Positions 1 to 59,104 of a stretch of 64,000 nt of DNA are shown here, piece by piece. Source of the stretch: Apostichopus japonicus (lineage: Eukaryota; Echinodermata; Holothuroidea; Aspidochirotida; Stichopodidae); assembly GCF_037975245.1 (NCBI RefSeq), contig NC_092564.1, positions 16,942,984 through 17,006,983 on the forward strand. Direction: 5' to 3'. The notes under the pieces were generated by a model that did no database searches, had not been told where the DNA came from, and saw only the letters and a list, made by a program, of their open reading frames with translations. Position 1 is the stretch's first letter, and every line of letters begins with the position of its first letter. Position numbers and translations under genes: made by a program.

Positions 1-2274
1 CCACACTAGTAAGAGACGTTAAACTCGCAAAGAAGCAACGAGATGACATCACAATCCAAATATTGTGATCCAGTAAATGAAGTTTTATCATGCAACAAAG
101 TCGAAATAAGTTAACAAGCACCCGTGTAACGTTAGACACAAAGTATTAATTAAGCCGTGGGATGGGGGTTTGGGGGGGGGAGGGGTTCATCTAACCGTAT
201 GTACTATGTTCTTTTATTTTAATGCTGTAGTAGTATGTACGACGTAAGAAGTATTTCTTAATATGTTGGAATTATTACTACGTTTTCCGCGCGAGGAGCA
301 AATGTAACAAATTGGAAATTTTAAACTTATGGATATAGGCCTACTTATAGAAAGTTGTACGTTTACGCAATCCATCTTTCGAACGCTCTGTTGCAATACT
401 CAATAGGATAGAAAGGCATACCAAGTAGCTACAATTTTTACCAATCTTTAATTTATTAACATATTTTACTCACTCTGATCTATTAATACCGCCACCAATA
501 GACTCTTCCCTTCCCTTCTTTCTGCCTTTCTTCATGTTGTTGTCAATTCCTTTGCGAAATCACTATACAATACAGAACTTTGTGTAGTACATTAAAGATA
601 TTCACGTGTACGTTACTAGTCGGTTTCTGACTATAGTGGCTTTATACTGCGTAAAAGGTGGTAGGCAGCTACTTGATATATTATGTCAAGCACTATTGCA
701 GAGTAATCACTACTTCACATCCGTTTGGAAAGAGAAAAATTCGTATATTGACGGAAATGAATCATGGAAAACCTTTTTTAAAGTGTATATATACGTAAGA
801 AAGGGTATAGCAGGAGTATGTATCCTCATATTGCCAAAGCGAAAGTTCACGATTAATTGTCTGTTGGTGAAAGCTACCGGGAATCTTAGGAACCCTCATA
901 TCTTGCCAAAATATAGAATTCAACTTTATAAGAACTTTTTCATCTACCGTGCTGCAATTTACATTAAATTTGGTAATTTGGAACCTTTCATTTAATTTTT
1001 ACTAATTGTTTCACCTAGTTCTAGTAATGTACATAGTTTTAACGCTTTCTTGATGTGCAATCATTTCAACATCTTATCTATCATGGTTTTCATATTTATT
1101 TATTTTTAGTTTGACATGTGTACTCCTTTTTTATAAATACGCTATATTTATAGTGGTTTCAATAAATGAAATGAAAACAAAACAAACATAGTATAATAGG
1201 ATATGAGTAGTACATTGTGCGTACCACGCGAAAAAAACCCTACCTTTACACCAATCATTCCTCTTTATTCTCTGAAGACTTTACAAATTGTATTTACAAA
1301 AAATGGCAACTATTAAACTTTTATTAGAAAAGAAGATTGTAAATGTGAAATACTTAAGTTTAATCCCCCCCCCCCCCCGGCCGCGGTTGCTAATTTAACC
1401 ACCTATTTCTCTCTAGCCGTATCTCTATATCCCTTTGAATGTTTGTTTCTGTTCTTACATATATAGGGTAAGCTGTAAAAAACCTAGAAATTATTTGCGT
1501 GCTTTTTATGTTGCTATTCTGTAACAATTTGCACAATAGTGTGGATTGCCTTTGATATATTATTCAAAATAGATATTTGGTGACACCAATATTCCTGCTC
1601 AAAATTAGTTATTAGCCGTTCAGCTATATATCCCAACAATGATGTGGGTCCATCTAATGTTACGTATATACTATTTATAAAGATAATCATACTGCAACAA
1701 AAAAAAGGTTAGCTTTAAGCATGAACAAAACATCAAGTCTGCTACAAACATTATAAACATATATGTTTGTATTTAATAGTATTTACATATGATACAAATA
1801 TTATGATACAAATAATATTAGATACAAATATTATTAGATACAAATAATATTTTCACTACGGTGATTATGTGAGTTTAATTGCTTCAAGAAAAACAAAATT
1901 ATTTAGTCGGCTGTTATGCCATGGTAACATCATTCCTTCCCGGCCCTGTTGCCAGATGCTTTCACAAAATATCACCAAATTTGAAAAGAAAATCATGTCT
2001 TCTCCATGCATACAAAGTGCTATGTTTGTCGAGGAATGTGCATGGTTTTGACCTAAAGATGGAGACGCTTCCGGGCATTTTGGGAATGTCCCTTTAAGTG
2101 GCGCCTTAACTGTATCTTGTTGTTTTTCCCTTCTTTATTAGCCTTCTCTGTTTCTCTTGGTGATTACTAGCTTTGATAAACATTCTTGTTTTTTTTTTTT
2201 TCTGTAACTAAACCAGTTACTTATCATTTTGTGACACCAAAATGTCGATTACAATCAACTTGATAACAAAGTTG
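1..2274. other. Intergenic, no gene recognised
   Basis: This is AT-rich DNA with homopolymer runs: a G run near 170-185 and a C run near 1366-1378. Near 1795-1850 there is a short run of units close to 'gatacaaatattat'. The longest open frame (606-995, plus) has no start context, splice signals or family resemblance and looks like chance. At about 1950-1990 lies a fragment reading 'gccagatgctttcacaaaat', which recurs in similar form near 30.43, 52.40 and 52.60 kb, so it is a dispersed low-copy repeat. I see no gene. Confidence 0.6.
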
Positions 2275-2289
2275 ACAATGAGGCTATAC

Positions 2290-2640
2290 TTGCAGAGCAG
2301 AGTACGACAAACTAAATGTGAACTCGACGAGCAATACATATGTGATTCACTAAGCAGAGAAGATTCTCAAACCTGACGTCATAGATGCTAATGAATATTC
2401 ATAACTCAGTAAAGCAATACCAATACAGCCAATCCTCACGTGACAGTATTTCTCAAGAGAACCGTTTTGTACACAGTTTGATATGTCGAGCAATGCCATA
2501 TAGTCTTGGTGAGCAATAGCCCGAGTGACTATACGATAAGCTGAACTGGCCAACAAGTTAAGATCAGTGAGAGTGATGTTGAAGTAAACCAGAATGACTA
2601 CAACCTACTGAATCGCTCATTTACAAAATGAATTTGCATA
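2290..2640 (+). pseudogene. Decayed copy of the YxxLN/ITAM receptor tail
   Basis: On the plus strand this stretch aligns in pieces with the cytoplasmic repeats encoded on the minus strand at 5258-6045. Readable fragments are YDKLN near 2301, DVIDANEYS near 2377-2403, a second YDKLN near 2538, and NQNDYNLLNR near 2597-2627. They appear in the order expected for about one 93-residue unit but are separated by stops and frame changes (for example a stop directly after EYS, where the intact gene has EYSELN). It is therefore a dead partial paralogue in inverted orientation, about 2.6 kb beyond the 3' end of the live gene. No matching transmembrane exon was found to its left. Confidence 0.72.
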
Positions 2641-5203
2641 ATTAAAAAGTACAAAGACACTGACGGCATACTATATCAAGTATCGAGAGATTTGCCAGTA
2701 TATCTTCTTCTGTGTCTTAGCAGACGACATCGATTTTACATACTAATGGTAATTTTAAACCTAATGTACGGTGCCACATTGTGTTCTGAAATGAATTATT
2801 TTCATTGGACGAGAATTTATCATGAAAGTGATGTTTGTGATGTAAAAGTTCAACGGTATTTTACTTATTTTTGTGCGACAATATCGTCCCAGTTACTGAA
2901 ATCATAGTTGAGTATCGCTTTAGCAAACTTTAATGCCAGTACGTTGTTATATATAATCGTATAAGGCAGGTTTAATCAAGTCTCAAAATGTGGCATTTTT
3001 TTTAAATTTATATTTTGTTTTCTTATTTGGTATGGTTGCGTTACTTGGCCTGATTAGTGAGTGTTCGCTGATTTGACATGGGGTACGCTTGCGTTGTCTG
3101 CTTACTTTTGTATGATAGCACGTGATCACGTTTACTTTGTCTAATAAGGTTGTATTCACTGTTTTTCATAAGGTAAGGTATAGCATTCAACTTATTTACA
3201 GACGGAGGGCTCATTATATTTTTGCTTTCTAAAGGTGAACATCACGCCGATGACTCCCGTTGAAGTTCAGTTATCGCCGGGTAATGTATACCCAGCTTTT
3301 TGTTCGCAAAGTCGGGGTTTTCATGTAGTACGACAAAGTACAACGTACATGGTGTTTAGCTGTCCAATAAGACAGTTTTCACTAAATTATTTCATGAGGG
3401 ATAGTAAAGCGTTCCCATATCTGGTCAAGTTCCCTTCACGTTTCTTTAATATACCACGTCACGGAACACACTTGATCTATTGTCTTCCGTATGTTAGGTT
3501 TAGTCTAACTCTGGTATACGCTCGATCGATCATATACGTTATTGTCTAACAGGAAATAACAACACTGCAGTTTGTGCAAATTTACATGTTCAATTCGTTG
3601 AATATCACTGCTGCGTCATGACTTTACTTATTCTTTCAAACAACTTTGTTTTGATTGACCTCGTATACTCTCAGTGGACGCACAAACACAGTGAAGGATC
3701 GTATACGGTAGCTAACGCTGTTGCTCTAGAATAAAGTCAAACGCGTCAAGAACTCCATATATGGCTGACCACAATCATAGTAGAATAAGAGCGATTTATA
3801 GGAGACGCCATAGCATAGAAACCGACTATTCACTGCAGTTAAATACATGCGACAAGTTGATTTTTGTGTTGAAATACAAACTAAAGAAGCAAAAAATATA
3901 TAAATAAAATAGAAAAAAAATAAATTGAAAGAATGTGTATTATACTCAATTCCAGATAACAATTTCTCAAACTAAGACACTTCCGTAGATTAGGTCATCA
4001 AATGAACCATCAAGGGCACCGGCTGTGTTGATGCCAAATATGCTAGAAATTCAAATAATGGTCAGTCATTCTCCAGTTTTAACCACCATTTTACTTTACC
4101 CCCCCCCATCCCCTACACGCGCACTGAGAAATTAAATCATCTATGTTAATACTCCTCATATAATTTGAAATTACTTTGAGGGATCAGAGCCTCTCGTAAT
4201 TTCAGAGAACTAGTCTTTAAAACTTCTAGCAATTTTATTTTTAGGGTGCTAAAATTGGGGCCTAATATAATATACTGGTGAGCTTTCACTTATCGTGGGT
4301 AATGTACGTTGACGTTCGATTCTAAATCTTCCGTTGCCCGAACACATTTTCATATTCCCTGCAAATAGTAGATCGAAACCTTTCAACATTTGAGGTGAAT
4401 CAATTGAATTAAACTAAAGCATATTAACTCCACTGATTGTTATATGATTTGTAATATCAAGTTATATCGAAAACGTACAATTTCCTCACATAAAACTACT
4501 TTTGATATAGGTTTTGATGCGCTGTGTTTCATCACCAACTTTAAAGTACACGGTGAGGTTTGCAAAGAACTTCTCTTGTGAAACACATGTTCTGAACTCA
4601 AACTATGTTGTATCTGATATCTTCCTCTAAATATGCCAGGAAGCTGCCATTTTGTAAATCTGTGACGTCATAGTGCCACTATGATATGATTTTTTTTTAA
4701 CTTTCCCTCAGTTTTACTTTTCATATGTTTATTTTAAGAATGTTATAATATGGTTGCTACTGAAACTATTGCTATGATTAAGTCATGTTAATATATTCAA
4801 TATTGTAGATACAACATTTTCATTTCATTTTTTTGCAAGTTTGACCTTTAGACCTTATTTGATCAAATGACCTTTTTAATTCCACAAATGTAACATTAAC
4901 TCAATAGTACTATATAGGCTACATTATGAAATAGAAAATAAGAAAACTTTTCTGACATCTATTACCGTGTTTTTAATGCATTAAAAAATAGTGCGAAGGC
5001 AAATGGTAATGAATATCATCCATTGAGTGAATGCTGTTTGTATGAAGTTAAAAGAAGATGTGTTGGTCGCGTTATTAGAAATCACAGAAATAAACATTAT
5101 CTACAATTCACTTACATCCATCGGAAAGGGAATAATATGCGCATGTTCATTTTCTCATGGCGTGTTCTGATTGGACGAGGGTTTCAACATATTGTCGTTA
5201 ACT
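2641..5203. other. Intergenic, no gene recognised
   Basis: No coding exon is supported here. The 104-codon frame at 3235-3549 (plus) matches no family I know and lacks splice or promoter context. CRE-like TGACGTCA occurs near 4663. A minus-strand AATAAA (plus TTTATT near 4727) is the nearest plausible poly(A) signal for the receptor gene ending at 5258, but it is about 0.5 kb away and unproven. Confidence 0.5.
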
Positions 5204-5257
5204 TCAATACTCCCACTGATCTTGGCCTTGTGGTCAAGCTTGTCGTACGACGCTAAA

Positions 5258-6045
5258 TTAAGCTGATGTTATTTGCTCATTTAGTTCTGAATATTCATTA
5301 GCATCGATGACGTCATTTTGAGATGCTGGTCTACTTTCTCTGTTGAGTAAGTCATACGAGTTGCTCTTTGGGGTTGCATTCAGTTGGTCGTACCCTGCAC
5401 TAGTAGAGGCATTAACATTAGCTTTACTGGAAGGGTCACCTCTGTTAAGCTGATCGTATCCGACATCTTGGGGTGACGTCACCGCTTCAATACTCCCACT
5501 GAGCTCGGCCTTGTGGTTAAGCTTGTCGTACGATGCTGAAGCTGACGATATTTTCTCATTCAGCTCTGAATATTCATTAGCATCGATGACGTCATTTTGA
5601 GATGCTGGTCTACTTTCTCTGTTGAGTAAGTCATACGAGTTGCTCTTTGGGGTTGCATTCAGTTGGTCGTACCCTGCACTAGTAGAGGCATTAACATTAG
5701 CTTTACTGGAAGGGTCACCTCTGTTAAGCTGATCGTATCCGACATCTTGGGGTGACGTCACCGCTTCAATACTCCCACTGAGCTCGGCCTTGTGGTTAAG
5801 CTTGTCGTACGATGCTGAAGCTGACGATATTTTCTCATTCAGCTCTGAATATTCATTAGCATCGATGACATCATTTTGAGATACTGGTTTACTTTCTCTG
5901 TTGAGTAAGTCATACGTGTTTCTCTTTGCAGTTGCATTCAGTTGGTCATACCCTGCACTAGTAGTGGCATTAACATTAGCTTTACTGGAAGGGTCACCTC
6001 TGTTAAGCTGATCATATCCGACATCTTGGTGTGACGTCACCGCTT
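5258..6045 (-). repeat. Coding tandem repeat, 279-bp unit, about 2.8 copies
   Basis: The anchor 'gcatcgatga' recurs at 5301, 5580 and 5859, exactly 279 bp apart (93 codons). The two 3'-most units look identical by eye, while the third (5859 upward) differs at several sites, for example TAKRNT in place of TPKSNS. Because the unit is a multiple of three, copy-number changes keep the frame. Similarity continues past the stop codon into 5204-5257, so the array once extended further. Confidence 0.9.
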
Positions 6046-8789
6046 CATTCGAGGTCGAATCGGGTTCCAATGTATGGTAAAAGGGAGTTTTATTATTAGA
6101 TACCTCCTCATATCCCTGGCTGCCTCCTATATGTGGTTTTGGCTGATTTTTGTCAACCTCTTCATACTGGCCTGCTGAAGTATTTTTTGTTTCATTTCCG
6201 TTGCTTTTGGACTTAATTCCAGACTGTTTACCAGCATCAGTGTAGTTATTAAATGGCACTTCCGTTTCACCATTGGAATTGGTCTTTCCTTTGCCGGCTT
6301 CCAAATCTGTAAAATATGATATTTAATAAACATATGAAAGCTACAAAATACCCACCCTATATGCATTTGAAAACAGTTTCGCCATTAACGATCGTATCAC
6401 TTATTTATCTAATTTGATGGGAGAGGCATTTTTGCCCACTTACAACGAAGAAAAAGACACTTTCTCCTCATTTCAGTACGATTCAGTTGAACTAATCTAT
6501 AAAGATACGAGTATAGGACATACTGAACTCTGCTGCAGCACTACGTCACTGTACTTATACATTACCAAATATTACTGATAAACTGTGGGTCTTCTATACG
6601 AAGTGAGATTTAATTGACCTCTTATAAGAGCTATTTTAGTTGTGCATGTGTCCGCAGTACTGAGTGTAACTAGATAAATGATACAAGATTTCGGAACTGT
6701 ATTCTGATCACAACAATATGGCGATGCAACAAATAAATAGGTGGCACAATTGTAGAACAATAGACAGCTATACGTGATAATAGTCAACTAACGGTGGTCT
6801 TTAACAAAAGCGAGGGAGGCAAACACTATTTCCACCTTTTCATGTACGACTTGACCACAGGGCAGATGCGTGAAGTGATCGGGAGCATTTTTGGCAACAA
6901 AGCTTAAGTGTCAAGCAAATTTTATATGATGTCATAAATTGTTTTTAATTTCAGTCATATTTTGACCGACAGTTTGTTTAATTCGGTGAACAAGCGCAAA
7001 GAGTATTTTTCTCTTTCACAGTTCAACAGTGGTATTGATAATGATATTGATAATAATATTTACAAATACGTTTTCCTTTTACGATATCATAGTATTTCGA
7101 CACATTGGTAATATATCAACATATTGTCTTGTTTTATTGAAGCATCTTTCCTTTTCCTTTTCTTTTCAGTTTTCCCGCCATTTTTGCTTACTGTTCTTTT
7201 CCAGCCGGGTCTAGCTACCGTATAAACTCTGCAAAGTTCTCCAGCATGTTCACCTAATTCTTCAGTTCAGAGAAAGCAGCTATTTGGTTTTCTATAATTT
7301 TGGCTTTCTAAAACCCGTGCAATTTTTTTGTAACTTTGTAGCATTTGTCTTCGCAATCTACGATTATGTAATAGCCTGTTATCAAAGATGATTATAAATA
7401 GTGAATTCACAACTGTTAATTATTTACACCATAACTGCATCATGTCAAAAAACTATGATACATTTTTAGGAATGCGTACCTTTGACCTTTATTTCTTCGT
7501 TGCCACTCGTAGAGTTTCGATTCCTTCTCTTGCGATATCTGTTAAAAAAACAGAATAATATAAACTTTAGATTTCTAGAAACAAAGAATAAACACATTAA
7601 TTTACACTCAATTTCTTTGACATGAAACGTTGTTTACTTGTAAGTTAGAGTAATTTGTATATGCAGAAACGATGCAGGAAATAATGAACCCATTTCTAGA
7701 CTAGTATGTACTTATTTGGACTGACGTCATCACTCGTTGCTCGGGAGGTTTGTAGGTGAAAGCAAGCCGTTGCGAATTTTATTCCACGATTTGAAGTTAG
7801 AGTTGAATAGATAAGCTTATTATGTATGTCGTTATGGCATAGTGGGGTCAATCAGGTTGAGAAAATCATGGAAAAATGACGCAAAGTGCTGCTTTAAGAG
7901 CAGAGGACGGAATGTGCCATATATTTTGTACACAGTCATCTGCATTCTTGAACTCTAAACCGTAAATTGTCTTATATAATTAATCTCCTTTAATGCCTTA
8001 CACCTACATAAAAAAATTCTCAAGAATCTTGAGTTAAAAATATATTAACTATTATCTTTGTCCTTATACTGTATGCTCCAATGGAAGTTAGGAAGATAGG
8101 TTCAACCGGCGTTGGAAACTATAATGTTACCTTAGTCGTTATAACTATAGGAGATTGACCATAGGCATGATTAAGTCCAGTAATCGAGATAGGAAGAAAA
8201 CTTTTCATAGCGATCCTAAAATTGTGCAACTGATTATATTTGATGACTTCACGGTCACCTAACTATATCAAATTAACGTTAGTCAACGAGGGTCAAAGGT
8301 CGTCTACGTGTTAACAATGAATTGGACGAGCGGGTGAAGGCCATTACATTACAAGCAATGCAATATTAGCATCTGCATGGAGCATAGACTTACCTAGCTG
8401 TAGACTTCATCCAGTAGAAACCAATTAACATTAACAACAAGACGGCTAGAACAATGACTGGTATAGTCACCAGTACAACCAATCTTGATCCACTCTGGCC
8501 ATTACTTGCTACAGGTATGTATTTTGTGGTAACCTTTTCGTTATTCTGTGACGTCATAACTGCGGTGGTGCTAAAATATGTTGTTGGTGCCTCTGTATGC
8601 GTTGTATCTGTGGTCACTGTGGTGGTGCTAAAATATGTTGTTGGTGCTTCTGTATGCATTGTATCTGTGGTCACTGTGGTGGTGTTAAAATATGTTGTTG
8701 GTGCTTCTGCATGCATTGTATCTGTGGTCTTTGGCGAGCCACAGCATGTCGTTGTATTCTTTTTACTATCACCGTGACTGATAGCACTT
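5258..8789 (-). CDS. Single-pass receptor with Thr-rich stalk and multi-ITAM tail (3' exons)
   Basis: Three coding exons are supported, 5' to 3': 8789-8394, 7538-7480 and 6306-5258 (stop at 5258-5260). Acceptors CAG and donors GTAAGT and GTACGC frame them, and the junction phases agree, giving about 501 residues without the N-terminus. Order of parts: a short Cys-containing segment (TTTCCGSPK); three 19-residue mucin-like units of the type TTDTMHTEAPTTYFSTTTV; a roughly 24-residue hydrophobic helix (8400-8480) followed by WMKS; a basic juxtamembrane exon (RYRKRRNR); then a tail of 349 residues. The tail has two YEEV motifs, one YHTL and fourteen YxxLN motifs, most of them in 93-residue repeats. 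Each repeat holds YDQL-x8-YDLL, which fits the ITAM consensus YxxL/I-x(6-8)-YxxL/I. I infer a type I membrane receptor that binds SH2 proteins when phosphorylated. The ligand-binding ectodomain was not found, so its ligand and subfamily are unknown. Confidence 0.78.
8527..8720 (-). repeat. 57-bp coding repeat encoding mucin-like stalk
   Basis: Three in-frame 57-bp units encode 19-residue Thr-rich blocks (TTDTMHTEAPTTYF and variants) directly outside the transmembrane helix. Dense Thr with scattered Pro suggests an O-glycosylated stalk. The units differ at a few positions (HAEAP, HTEAP; YFNTT, YFSTT), so they are older than the near-identical 279-bp tail units. Confidence 0.85.
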
Positions 8790-13526: not shown

Positions 13527-16500
13527 ATGACTAACTTTGAAAAGTATACTTTCGGCAAAAGACTCTTAGAAAGTCAAGGCTGGACTTCTGGTACTATTTC
13601 AAATATAATTGATACTGTGTCAGTGTGTGTGAACTGTGATAGCCTACTTACACTACAGTGGCCATAGCCACAATGTATTGAGACCTAGTCCTAACAGTAA
13701 CAATATCCTAGTCTTCATCCTCTGTAATATTATATGTGAGGGTAACACTTAAACCTCTAAGTTACATACAGTTATCACCAGTCGGACAAGCCTAGGTTAA
13801 GGCTAACATTTCATTGTTTAGACTACCCCTCTGCCTAGTTAATATAATTAAGTACATATTACTATTATTTCTAATACACTTGTAAGTTGTATAGTAAAGG
13901 CTTCGTAATTGACGCACCCCCGTAATTGACGCACCTTCAATTATAACTAGCAACGATACAGCAGGCCACCTAAACTTTTTGCAGTCAAGCATAATTACAT
14001 ATTCATGAGTTTGAATCCATTTCAGCTATTTGCTGACCAAATTGTGGTTTCTATTAAGCTTTTACCACCCTCCCCCCAGTTTTACACGTATTTTGGACAT
14101 TTGGAAATCTTACTCCCAAAAACTTACCAAAATTATTTCAATATGATACAACTACTCTCTGGGACCTGACCTGTCTGAGCCAAGAGGTTCAGAGCATAGC
14201 AAACAGCATCCAAAGTCAATGGATGTATACTTAGGCCTACTCTACAGTTAGCTTATCGACGAATGTGTCAATTTAGGGGTATGAAAGAACTTGACACAGC
14301 AGACATTTTGTGTTCAAATTCTTCTCAATTGTACGTTGCGTAGGCACAGAACAATAAATATTTTGAGATCATTACATTTGTGAGGAACTACACATATGAA
14401 AAATGCATGCAGTTGAGTGATTTTGATTTTATGTTGACAGACATCGTCAATCCAATCCTTAAGTGCGTCAATTATGAGCCCACCATGCTACTTGTTGTAG
14501 TGGGTAGTAACTGTGAACATTTTCTTTCAATAGTGATTACTGTACTAATCATTCCAGCCGTAAATACCCCTCTCCCGACCATTTAACATATCATGTAAAG
14601 TACTCTATAGCCTAAAGGTAACATGGACTGAACTGCATCCACTAAACAGCTTTGTGTTTGACTGGAATGGAACAAGCTAAGAGCTATACATAAGCTATCA
14701 AATCATTTTAAAATGCTTTAGTTTGGCTGTTCTGTAACCTCCTTTTAACTTGGTGTTGTGTCCTTAATATAGGAACGGAAACAACTTTTTGATGCAAACG
14801 GTATAACCTTGTTTTAATTGGTATGGAGCACACTTTTTAACTGCCAAGTGCTTCCTGTCTTTTACAGTTTAAAGCTATTATTTTAAGCTTAAAATCCAGA
14901 TGAGCTAAAGTTTTAAATTGTGCAGTAAACTTTCAAGCCAAGTTCAGGGAAACTTCCACAACAACTAACAATAACTCTATCAGTCCCAACATAAATTTCT
15001 CCTACACCCCCCTCCCCTGCCCCCCTTCCCCCCACCTTGCCAAATGATTCCATAATGTGCACATTCTACCATTGTGCAGAATACAGTGTAACTGATCGAA
15101 ATAAAATGGTATTGTGAAAATATATTAATATTGAACTGAAGAGTATATGAGTGAAGTATAATTTGTACATATACTGTAGTATCCGGCTTTAGGAATCACA
15201 AATGATTTCGAGTTAGTCAACATCATGTTTGATCTCTAGAGTAAGGCAAATATGTTACCAAAACAGAACTAGTATTGTTCGATACAGGTGACAAATGCCT
15301 ACAGTGGAATAACGACCTTCCTGACCGGTTTTGAACCTCTGGACATACAATCAGCTTCCATAGCCTTGTGGTTAGGGTGTCCACATATAAAGTGGGAGGC
15401 CCGGGTTCGAATCCTATATATATATATATATATATATTGTAAATGCTTTCTCATTAGGTTGACACCTGTCTTCATTGTACTTCAAATTCTTTCAGGTAAG
15501 GGACTCGGGAGGAATGAATCGGGAATTGCAGAGGCCTTAAAACCAAGTCTTAAATTTGATAAAGCAGGGGTAAGTTGACAAATGTTGCCATGTAGCAACT
15601 GTTTGAATTAATTTTGACACATTTGCTACAGTTCACAATTGAAGATGTTGAGAATTATTCAACCTTTTTCAGCATTGTGGAATATTAGATGGCGCCACCA
15701 TTAGAAACTGACGTACAAACTTCTTAGAAGCAAGTGGTACCATTCATTACTCACTGCTACAGTACTGTCCTTAAATCTTCAGAGTTCACAAACAAGTAGT
15801 CGCTGATTGTCTTTCAGGAACTTAGATCAATTGCAATTTTATTTTTGATTTGTTTTGATAAACTGTCCATTTTTAATAATTACAACTTTTACAAGGTATT
15901 TTTGAGATACAGTATATCAACTTCATCCTTACCAAATCTTTAAATTGTTACATATGGGACGTTCAAAGTTGGAAATAAATCTATAAATCTATTTAGCATA
16001 ATCAATTAAATAGCAAAACTTTAAAGCAGTTATCAAAAGTTTACAAAGGATGGGTCATTAACATTCCCAATGTGTCTAAAATTACATTTACTGAATGCAC
16101 TTGTAACTGATAAAACTTCAAATGTCCCTTTTTGTACGTCACACCCATATAATTAACTATAGATGCAAATTATGCACAAGTAATTAGAACCTTAACTTGT
16201 AACATTTCAAGAGATCTCTTTGGGAAATCCAAAACTTCAGACCTACATATTGCTTTAAAGTGATACCTACAGTTCCAGCTATTTGAATGGTTTTTAAATT
16301 TTGAGGTGCAAAGGGGACAAAAGCTTGGATTTGCCCGACTGAACGCTATGCTCCTATAGATCGCATTCACAAATTACAATACTCAAATATTTTGTCTCGT
16401 GTTGGTGAATTTGCTGAGTATGGATATTACTGTCCAACGTGGGCGTAAAATGTTAACAAAGAAAATGTTATACCGTCCTAGTTTAACTGTTAGGTTCCTA

Positions 16501-25013: not shown

Positions 25014-28000
25014 TCATGGGTCTTGGTTTGGTTTCATCAAAGGGATATACCACTAAAATAAATGATCAAAAGTAAAAGAACACATTTCATCATCCTGTGA
25101 GAAACTTGGAAATTGAAATGAAATCTGCATTGCATCCAAAAATGTAGCATTCCCACTAATAGGCAAAAGACGCCTTCAACATATTTGTAAACATCTGCCG
25201 TGCAATATTATACAACACACTAACATGATTCCTCTACATGATTTATAGATATTAGTGTACACCTTCTTCCCCACCAATTCTTTCAACCTCTCACAAAGTA
25301 TTTGTTAGCAAACCAGCTTAGACATAATTCATTATCTAAATATGCCTCTAAATTGTTTATTTCCCTCCCTTAAAATAGAGATGGTTTCAATGACACCCAG
25401 GGCAGTTCCCCCTCCCTTATAAATTCTTTGATTTCCCCTCTGGCCCTCCCATAAATGTGCAGGCCCCACCTAAATCAGTCGGGGAAACTGTTTAAATCTA
25501 TTATTATTTACTAGCACAAATCTTACCTTTGTAGAACTACTTATTTAGACGTATAGTCACAATATGCGTCAGAAAGGACTATTAAATATCTAAAATGACT
25601 GACTTTGTTTTCAGTAATTTGATGCAATCAACTTCCAACAGATTCTGTTACTATAGCAAATCAAGTGTTAACACAAACAAGTAATAAAATAAGGCATCAA
25701 CTTCAACGGATTTCAATGGAATTGTAGTAAAGCAATTCCTACGTAATTGCACAACACAAGACTATATGTACTGGAAAACTGATTCATTCTGTAGTATTAG
25801 TACAACAGCATGAGTACCATTAAAAGTAGGAGCAGAATATTAATTGGCAGGAGTATGAGTGTTTAAACAAGGCTCATAGCTTGAGTTCAAGTATGTGCTC
25901 TGCATTAGTTAGAAAACATCTATTGCAAAATGCTCCACTGCTTTGAGTATGCCACTACATGTAATGATCCTATAGAATACGAATACATAGTACAGGTCTG
26001 AGTGTGTCACTACAGGTCACAATGCTATGGAATACCAATACATGGTACACAGTACATGTTTGAGTATGCCACTACAGGTAACAATTCTATAGAATACGAA
26101 TACATACAGTAGTACAGGTCTGAGTATGTCACTACAGGTAACCATTCTTATAGACGACGAATACATAGTACAGGTCTGAGTATGTCACTACAGGTAACAA
26201 TTCTATAGAATACGAATACATACAGTAGTACAGGTCTGAGTATGTCACTACAGGTAACCATTCTATAGACGACGAATACATAGTACAGGTCTGAGTATGC
26301 CACTACAGGTAACAATTCTATAGAATACGAATACATACAGTAGTACAGGTCTGAGTATGTCACTACAGGTAACAATTCTATAGAATACGAATACATACAG
26401 TAGTACAGGTCTGAGTATGTCACTACAGGTAACAATTCTATAGAATACGAATACATACAGTAGTACAGGTCTGAGTATGTCACTACAGGTCACAATGCTA
26501 TGGAATACCAATACATGGTACACAGTACAGGTTTGAGTATGCCACTACAGGTAACAATTCTATAGAATACAAATACATAGTACAGGTCAGAGTATGTCAC
26601 TACAGGTACGACTCTATAGAATATGAACACATACTGTAGTACAGGTCTGAGTATGTCACTACAGGTAACCATTCTATAGACGACGAATACATAGTACAGG
26701 TCTGAGTATGCCACTACAGGTAACAATTCTATAGAATACGAATACATAGTACATAGTACAGGTCTGAGTATGTCACTACAGGTAACTACTCTATAGAATA
26801 TGAATACATAGTACATAGTACAGGTCTGAGTATGTCACTACAGGTATTAAACTATTCTATAGAATAGGTAGTACATAGTGCAAGTCATGATTATGCCACT
26901 ACAGGTAACAATTCTATAGAATACAAATACATAGTACATGTTTGAGTATGTCACTACAGGTAATAACTCTATAGAATACAAATACATAGTACAGGTCTGA
27001 GTGTGTCACTACAGGTAACTACTCTATAGAATATGAATACATAGTACACAGTACAGGTTTGAGTATGCCACTACAGGTAACAATGCTATATAGAATACAA
27101 ATACATAGTACACACTATAGGTCTGCTCATAGCAGCCAACTATATAGGCTCAGCAATCATGGTGGCATTTGATATGTATCTGAATAGATGACCCTCACTG
27201 GCAACAAATCTAGTGGAAAAAACTACCTCTTTGGTCATTCCAGCTATACTTCTTCCTTCTTCATTAAATGGAGGCTTCAAGAAACCTCTGAAAAAAAAAA
27301 ATTAACAAACTGAATGACAAGAAATGTTAGAATTAACATGAATGTGGTATCAACATTTCTCTACCATTACCAATCCCAATGAAAGGGTTCAGACTGATCA
27401 GTATTAACATGTAGTAATGATATGCATGTATTAGTAATTTCAGATATAATCAGGGTTGTTGATTTTTTTGATTTTTTTAAAAAAATCAAAAAAATCGGAT
27501 TTTTTTGATTTAAATCAGATTTTTTTGATTTAAATCGGATTTTTTTGATTTTTTTAAAACCACATTTCAGTTGGACCCCATTGTTGCCTACATTATCACA
27601 TATATGCACCCATATCCACCCAGATCATTATATCCCCACATTGGGGATATTATGGTGTTGATCACTTTCAATTTGACCACATGTGACCCACTGCAGTGGC
27701 CATTTAATTCATCCAATTTGAACAAAACAAATGAGAGCAACGTATGGTGGTACCAAAAGTTGGTGGTGATCTCATATAGTTCCTGATATTCTCCCATTTG
27801 GCTTTTAAACACACTGTGATTGCTATGATGTGGGGATATACGTTGGCGGTTTAACGCCAGCTGATGTCTAGTTTTAATATATAAGCCTTATAGGCCTATA
27901 ATATATTCAGAATACTTTGCAGGCTAATTAAACCTGGGCCCTGGGCCTCAATCAATTTCCCATTGAACACACATGACCTAAGGCTACTGCAAGTCTAAGA

Positions 28001-58125: not shown

Positions 58126-59104
58126 ACCGGTTTTTATTTGTTTACTCTTTTTCGTGTTTTTTTTCTTGCCATTCAGACGAACTCTTCATTTAGCGGCAGT
58201 ATTTCCGGACTTCAAGTTAAAGTCACAAACAGGAAAGACCATGGAAACACAAACCAAAGATAGTGATAACATTTGCCAACTGATTCTAATGTTCAATTGG
58301 TCACGTGATTTTGACACTAGGTTATATGCCGAGCGCAGTATCGGCATTTGAAATGAAACATACACTAAACGTGTGAGCATGTGAGTCTTATATCCACCTT
58401 ATTATCCATATTCCCTCATTAGGACCTATCCATAGGGAATATTCCTCATTGTGTGTTAGGATATATGCGCAGAAAGTGTGGTCATTAGTGTTCATTGAAA
58501 TGTACTTTCTAAAGGAGACATCTTTGACAATTAAGCCTAAAAATTGCGATAATAAGGATTTGTACTGATCATCGAAATTTTTCGAAGAGCATGTTACGTA
58601 TAAACTTGATTACTAAGAAGACACTGCGCGAATATAATACATAACATGTAGACTGTAGTAAATAAGTGTTAAGTACACACCACGGTACATTCGAAAGACA
58701 TTTGTGGGGTTTCTGAAATTTCAGAAATTCATGCAACGATTTCTGTTCCTAAGAGATTTGATTGATAGAACTATATAGCAATAACATACAAACAAATATC
58801 TTTAATATGTTTGTTGAATTTTAATTTTTACATCCGTTCTGTTGGTATTATCATATCGTGTTCTTCAGCCAGTCGGGACAATTTCCTAATGCTAATTCCT
58901 CTCTACTCCAATATCATGCTTCAAAGCACTGGTGTTGACAGTATAAACAGTTCCTAACCTTGATCTGATAGAAACATGATATTCATACTGCTCGTACTGA
59001 CAATATGAGTGCTCGGAAGCCGTACATTGACACTACAGTACATATTTTTTTTGTGTCCCAACTGGGTGTGTACATGTGTGACGTAACATTGAATATTCAT
59101 TTAC

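Follow-up and report, generated by a model that had tools for sequence, protein, structure and literature searches.

The 64,000-nucleotide stretch of Apostichopus japonicus DNA analysed here (the window) carries, on its minus strand, a gene copy named g1 whose tail exon is rich in tyrosine motifs resembling the immunoreceptor tyrosine-based activation motif (ITAM). Three g1 exons, at 8394-8789, 7480-7538 and, for the tail, from 6306, have ordinary splice sites, follow one another in phases 2, 2 and 1, and read through without a stop codon. The first exon (8394..8789, minus strand, 396 bp, phase 2 in and phase 2 out) lies between the acceptor ttttcaaaacag and the donor gtaagt, and encodes a Ser/Thr-rich stalk (42% S+T over 101 aa) followed by a hydrophobic segment, RLVVLVTIPVIVLAVLLLMLIGFYW. 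A tandem-repeat scan located three 57-bp (19-aa) repeats within this mucin-like stalk (8559..8729, minus strand). The second exon (7480..7538, minus strand, 59 bp, phase 2 in and phase 1 out) encodes a basic juxtamembrane segment. The third is the tail exon (5258..6306, minus strand), an open frame of 348 residues after the split codon that is terminated by TAA at 5258-5260. An earlier note on this DNA had attached a mucin-like stalk and a transmembrane helix to the tail; the exon chain with matching splice phases, which recurs in two paralogues, supports this and suggests that g1 encodes a single-pass receptor-like membrane protein.

The tyrosine cassettes of the tail

Seventeen of the 18 tail tyrosines lie in YxxL (15) or YxxV (2) motifs, and a motif count reproduced the 14 YxxLN and two YEEV motifs reported in the earlier note. 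A tandem array occupies 5202-6047, with a 279-bp unit (93 aa) present in 3.0 copies. From the motif positions and a comparison of the repeats, we placed the tandem units 1 and 2 (93 aa each) at 5762..6040 and 5483..5761, and unit 3, shortened by the stop codon to 74 aa, at 5261..5482, all on the minus strand. Past the stop codon, an untranslated remnant of unit 3 (5202..5257, minus strand) is still recognisable as repeat.

Each unit carries a YDQL-x8-YDLL pair, exactly where the earlier note had placed it and on the minus strand: pair 1 at 5903..5950 (YDQLNATAKRNTYDLL), pair 2 at 5624..5671 and pair 3 at 5345..5392 (both YDQLNATPKSNSYDLL). All three satisfy the ITAM consensus, YxxL/I-x6-8-YxxL/I (PMC12058738; this and the other papers cited are drawn on in excerpt). 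The second pair described earlier, YSEL-x10-YDKL, is also present, but a motif scan found only two whole copies, at 5798..5851 and 5519..5572 (minus strand), the third repeat being ended by the stop codon. No NPxY motif occurs in the g1 tail sequence.

Paralogues and constraint on the tail tyrosines

The genome searched comprises 671,581,487 bases in 35 contigs (designated C2, C4, C9 and so on), and the protein searches scored only the best candidates, so that family counts are lower bounds. At least four copies have open YxxL-bearing tails, all on the minus strand: g1, its neighbours g2 (tail at C4:16938624-16939313, window -4359 to -3670) and g3 (tail at C4:16929598-16930260), and a copy on another contig, hereafter C9 (tail at C9:14715917-14716483). 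The C9 and g2 copies share the three-exon layout of g1, with paralogous stalk and transmembrane exons (696 bp in C9 and 339 bp in g2, the stalks being Ser/Gly- or Ser/Thr-rich); in both, the juxtamembrane exon agrees with that of g1 in its 59-bp length and its phases. The g1 and C9 chains were translated through, and the g2 chain was judged from its phases. Inspection by eye found no charged residue in the transmembrane core of g1, C9 or g2, the C9 copy having an Arg only near the inner end. In g3, a hydrophobic segment lies in a candidate exon about 1.4 kb upstream of the tail that ends in the same phase. The cassette containing both the x8 and the x10 pair is present once in C9, about 1.5 times in g2 and three times in g1.

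Constraint was assessed on an alignment of g1, C9 and g2, with g3 omitted as too diverged. All seven Tyr columns without gaps were invariant, whereas the 141 gap-free columns as a whole include 43 invariant ones (Fisher p = 1.7e-4). The distances between successive conserved tyrosines in g1/C9/g2 are 29/37/32, 21/21/21, 22/22/23, 12/12/12, 21/19/26 and 14/14/14; the distances of 12 and 14, which correspond to the two close pairs, are unchanged in all three despite identities of 53% and 44% between g1 and the other two. Moreover, nonsynonymous divergence (dN) is below synonymous divergence (dS) in each paralogue pair (dN/dS of 0.352/0.743 for g1-C9, 0.471/1.023 for g1-g2 and 0.425/1.234 for C9-g2), which we read as moderate purifying selection on the tails. 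Between the g1 repeats, the corresponding values are 0.033/0.069 (1-2) and 0.012/0.063 (2-3, on few changes).

Decayed relatives accompany these copies. One, comprising the tail and 3' flank in pieces and in opposite orientation, lies between g1 and g2 (window 2230..3422, plus strand), and others lie at two places on C21 and, as short weak matches, at two places on C23. Separately, window 58858-59068 gives a 79% match to C9:14715621-14715842, in the flank 3' of the C9 tail, with no tail copy found beside the match; the flank perhaps includes a mobile piece. The window also contains a 60-bp tandem satellite of about 20 copies at 25944-27107.

Syk-type SH2 exons in the same genome

A genome-wide search for SH2 domains produced 82 matches (E up to 0.001), of which many cover part of an exon and some contain stops; 20 stretches covering 24 of the 82 were read in their frames. 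The exon at C2:25161429-25161662 is a Syk-type N-terminal SH2, its top 11 PDB sequences being SYK or ZAP-70 (best E 1.7e-34 for SYK and 4.6e-33 for ZAP-70, with ABL as the next family at 2.1e-14). On the same strand and about 5 kb apart from it, the exon at C2:25156000-25156137 has as its best match the C-terminal SH2 of SYK (E 6.4e-14). Both alignments keep the Arg that serves the phosphotyrosine pocket (LLRES; VRER). These exons suggest that the genome encodes a Syk-type tandem SH2 protein.

Two other groups of SH2 matches were observed. Eleven with a 133-aa open frame (46.6-53.3 bits; C4, C9, C14, C19 and C20) form an amplified SH2 exon family, which we take, by resemblance, to be Fer/Fes-like. 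A further SH2 exon at C10:3199574-3199807 may, on a presumed resemblance, belong to a Shark/HTK16-type kinase.

Signalling interpretation and rival explanations

From the observed motifs, splice-compatible exon chain, paralogue conservation and Syk-type SH2 exons, we infer a membrane topology, phosphorylation, Syk docking and an immune role for the g1 protein, which may work like an ITAM receptor. We consider it about an even call that g1 belongs to a small A. japonicus receptor-like family whose ITAM-like tails feed Src-family kinases and Syk. Clustering of the ectodomain would lead to phosphorylation of the tail by Src-family kinases; doubly phosphorylated YxxL-x8-YxxL pairs would then dock the Syk-type tandem SH2 domains from the same genome. 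Added cassettes would multiply the docking sites, as in CD3-zeta, but within the receptor's own tail.

Several results weigh against this reading. Repeats 1 and 2 differ at 11 of 279 nt and repeats 2 and 3 at 5 of 222 nt; because such near-identical repeats go back to one, the three YDQL-x8-YDLL pairs are not independent, and the three g1 “ITAMs” are one cassette that was recently triplicated. In shuffles of one g1 unit, the C9 tail frame and the g2 tail (20,000 trials each), a YxxL/I-x6-8-YxxL/I pair arose in 0.66%, 0.87% and 2.05% of trials, respectively, when residues were shuffled, and an x6-8 pair arose in 51%, 42% and 59% when YxxL/I motifs were kept as intact blocks. Since block shuffles yield such a pair in 42-59% of trials, the spacing adds no evidence of its own to the motif density; it is the density of YxxL motifs that is remarkable, not the spacing by itself. 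Similarly, seven gap runs placed at random avoid both close pairs with P = 0.22, so the missing indels are not significant. We therefore rejected spacing as proof of an ITAM, which neither the block shuffle nor the gap test upholds. The second, partial unit of g2 has x10 in place of x8, and g3, the most diverged paralogue, has four adjacent YxxL/I pairs, none at x6-8. Thus, what the earlier note called three tandem, spacing-perfect ITAMs holds for the exact x8 matches to the consensus but not for three separate motifs or for the significance of their spacing.

Other points on the same side concern the tail, its putative partner and the missing 5' part of the gene. VGYDQL, which occurs three times in the g1 tail, also matches a loose consensus of the immunoreceptor tyrosine-based inhibitory motif (ITIM). 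The YTDA Tyr and the second YEEV Tyr, common to g1 and C9, fall in g2 gaps and hence outside the seven-column count. Pfam has an ITAM model, and a Pfam scan of the g1 tail at E up to 1 returned eight sub-threshold matches but no ITAM family; the scan found no sequence homology to the vertebrate ITAM chains CD3, FcR gamma and DAP12. For the tail and the stalk alike, we judged the sub-threshold Pfam matches, the strongest being Psg1 on the stalk (E 1.9e-5), to be composition noise. The Syk-type gene was recognised by its two SH2 exons, and its kinase domain is putative. Finally, comparisons of open reading frames (ORFs), signal-peptide scans and Pfam searches of 30 chosen ORFs corroborated no ectodomain or signal-peptide exon.

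In the search for these exons, a strict scan for a signal-peptide exon that would splice to the stalk in phase 2 left a single candidate, of low complexity, which was rejected. A relaxed scan gave many single candidates, none of which looked alike between paralogues by eye; two uncorroborated ones have strong donors, in g1 near 13992 (phase 1) and in C9 near 14720926 (phase 2). Beyond the tail, the stalk and transmembrane exon and the 3' flank, ORF blastp, blastn and donor-anchored peptide alignment revealed no convincing ectodomain exon common to the paralogues. The peptide alignment put three pairs above its score limit, compared with 57 for the control strand, where the peptides were also more numerous. 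Pfam detected no EMI, EGF or Ig domain in the 30 hand-picked upstream ORFs, a minority of all ORFs; only a fibrinogen exon exceeded the cut-off, and the ORF at window 16173-16373 had two sub-threshold zinc-finger matches. Upstream of the C9 copy on the same strand, a gene containing exons of EGF-like and fibrinogen-C type was considered as a source of a fibrinogen-type ectodomain and rejected as a separate gene, because its last exon has its own stop codon. Adjacent fibrinogen-C-type exon sets lie upstream of the C9 paralogue at C9:14731202-14734187 and C9:14749407-14753413; among the sets there, two have EGF-like exons and one has in-frame stops. A short, mucin-like ectodomain is one possibility, and a fast-evolving one another.

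The tail might instead be a multi-phosphotyrosine scaffold or an inhibitory tail, in which single-SH2 proteins or SHP-type phosphatases would bind the YxxL motifs individually and the x8 spacing would be incidental. This explanation, which we regard as possible but unlikely, draws on the ease with which YxxL density alone yields x6-8 pairs, on g3, which retains YxxL motifs without that spacing, and on the number of SH2 matches in the genome (82, counting exon fragments, some of them interrupted by stops). The loose ITIM fit of VGYDQL in all three g1 repeats, and of three sites in g2 (VDYDQV, TSYDIL and ISYDSL) and one in C9 (SSYDIL), points the same way, but in C9 the residue ahead of that repeat's first Tyr is not of the ITIM type. 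Retention of both the x8 and the x10 pairs in g1, C9 and g2 also argues against it. A further point against it is that YxN is a Grb2-type site and YxxM a PI3K-type site, and the g1 tail has neither motif and therefore no Grb2- or PI3K-type sites. If the YxxL motifs served unphosphorylated, as YxxPhi sorting signals for clathrin adaptors, an endocytic tail would account for the 17 tyrosines in YxxL or YxxV, both of which fit YxxPhi. However, a single YxxPhi is enough for sorting, and sorting explains neither the 14 YxxLN motifs nor the constancy of the pair distances; we hold this alternative to be quite improbable. Least probable of all, and very unlikely in our view, is the view that g1 is decaying or already a pseudogene, its open tail a side effect of recent tandem duplication. 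The stop codon within repeat 3 with repeat DNA continuing beyond it, the decayed relatives in the window and on C21 and C23, and the failure of the signal-peptide scans to establish a first exon are consistent with decay, but the frame is open across three exons with intact splice sites, and dN is below dS both for the paralogues and for repeats 1-2 and 2-3.

The reading in which g1 signals through ITAM-like pairs also has to be placed among known systems. CD3-zeta combines three YxxL/I-x6-8-YxxL/I pairs in a single cytoplasmic tail (PMC12058738), and the g1 tail, probably cytoplasmic too, shares this feature. It differs in that its copies are near-identical through recent duplication, two of them with an extra x10 pair, and in its long Ser/Thr-rich stalk and uncharged transmembrane core; the Pfam scan detected no sequence relationship. 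Vertebrate ITAM adaptor chains have a charged residue in the transmembrane segment. LAT-type transmembrane scaffolds are single-pass proteins with many tail tyrosines, whereas g1 lacks YxN sites and has paired YxxL motifs instead.

Among invertebrates, the oyster C-type lectin receptors CgCLec-TM1 and CgCLec-HTM, which contain a half-ITAM (hemITAM) and are reported to signal through Syk, are likewise membrane receptors of a marine animal with a tail tyrosine motif (PMC13027682); they combine the half-ITAM with a lectin domain, whereas g1 has many paired YxxL motifs and no lectin domain was found. An ITAM is also present in Draper and MEGF10, where Shark or Syk reads it (PMC4503800, PMC8092387), but Draper, MEGF10 and CED-1 have EMI/EGF-like ectodomains and NPxY; the g1 tail lacks NPxY, and the 30 chosen upstream ORFs showed no such ectodomain. 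The Botryllus fester co-receptors (FcoR) and the Hydractinia Alr candidates are locus-clustered membrane proteins with YxxL-type, hemITAM, ITIM or ITAM motifs (PMC12065747). The FcoR proteins have Ig and sushi ectodomains, of which none was seen for g1, and the excerpted text describes no triplicated cassette for FcoR or Alr. The literature searched on ITAM and related terms yielded no echinoderm ITAM receptor of the g1 kind, and the available parts of PMC9505182 contain nothing on echinoderm ITAM receptors. The earlier description of an “undescribed” invertebrate receptor agrees with that literature, the only place in which it was checked, where no such protein is named.

Invertebrates have a single Syk-like gene plus SHARK (PMC10253181), and Syk is among the Patiria egg transcripts (PMC11593052). 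Moreover, invertebrate Syk accompanies CARD-CC/Bcl10, which has been interpreted as pointing to ancient ITAM receptors acting upstream (PMC5978004). A bolder version of the ITAM-like reading, which we put forward tentatively and think rather unlikely, is that this echinoderm family signals directly via Syk with its output tuned by the number of 93-residue ITAM cassettes (1, about 1.5 and 3), making it a candidate echinoderm receptor upstream of Syk and of a CARD-CC/Bcl10/MALT1-like pathway. Cassette copy number is perhaps also polymorphic between animals.

According to a 2025 review, there is no clear consensus on why one chain carries several ITAMs (PMC12058738). If the tail binds Syk, g1 would provide a concrete echinoderm receptor upstream of Syk, and the range of cassette numbers among the paralogues (1, about 1.5 and 3) would constitute a natural experiment on multiple ITAMs per chain. 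Should cassette number indeed tune the output, the family would represent a natural ITAM-dosage series.

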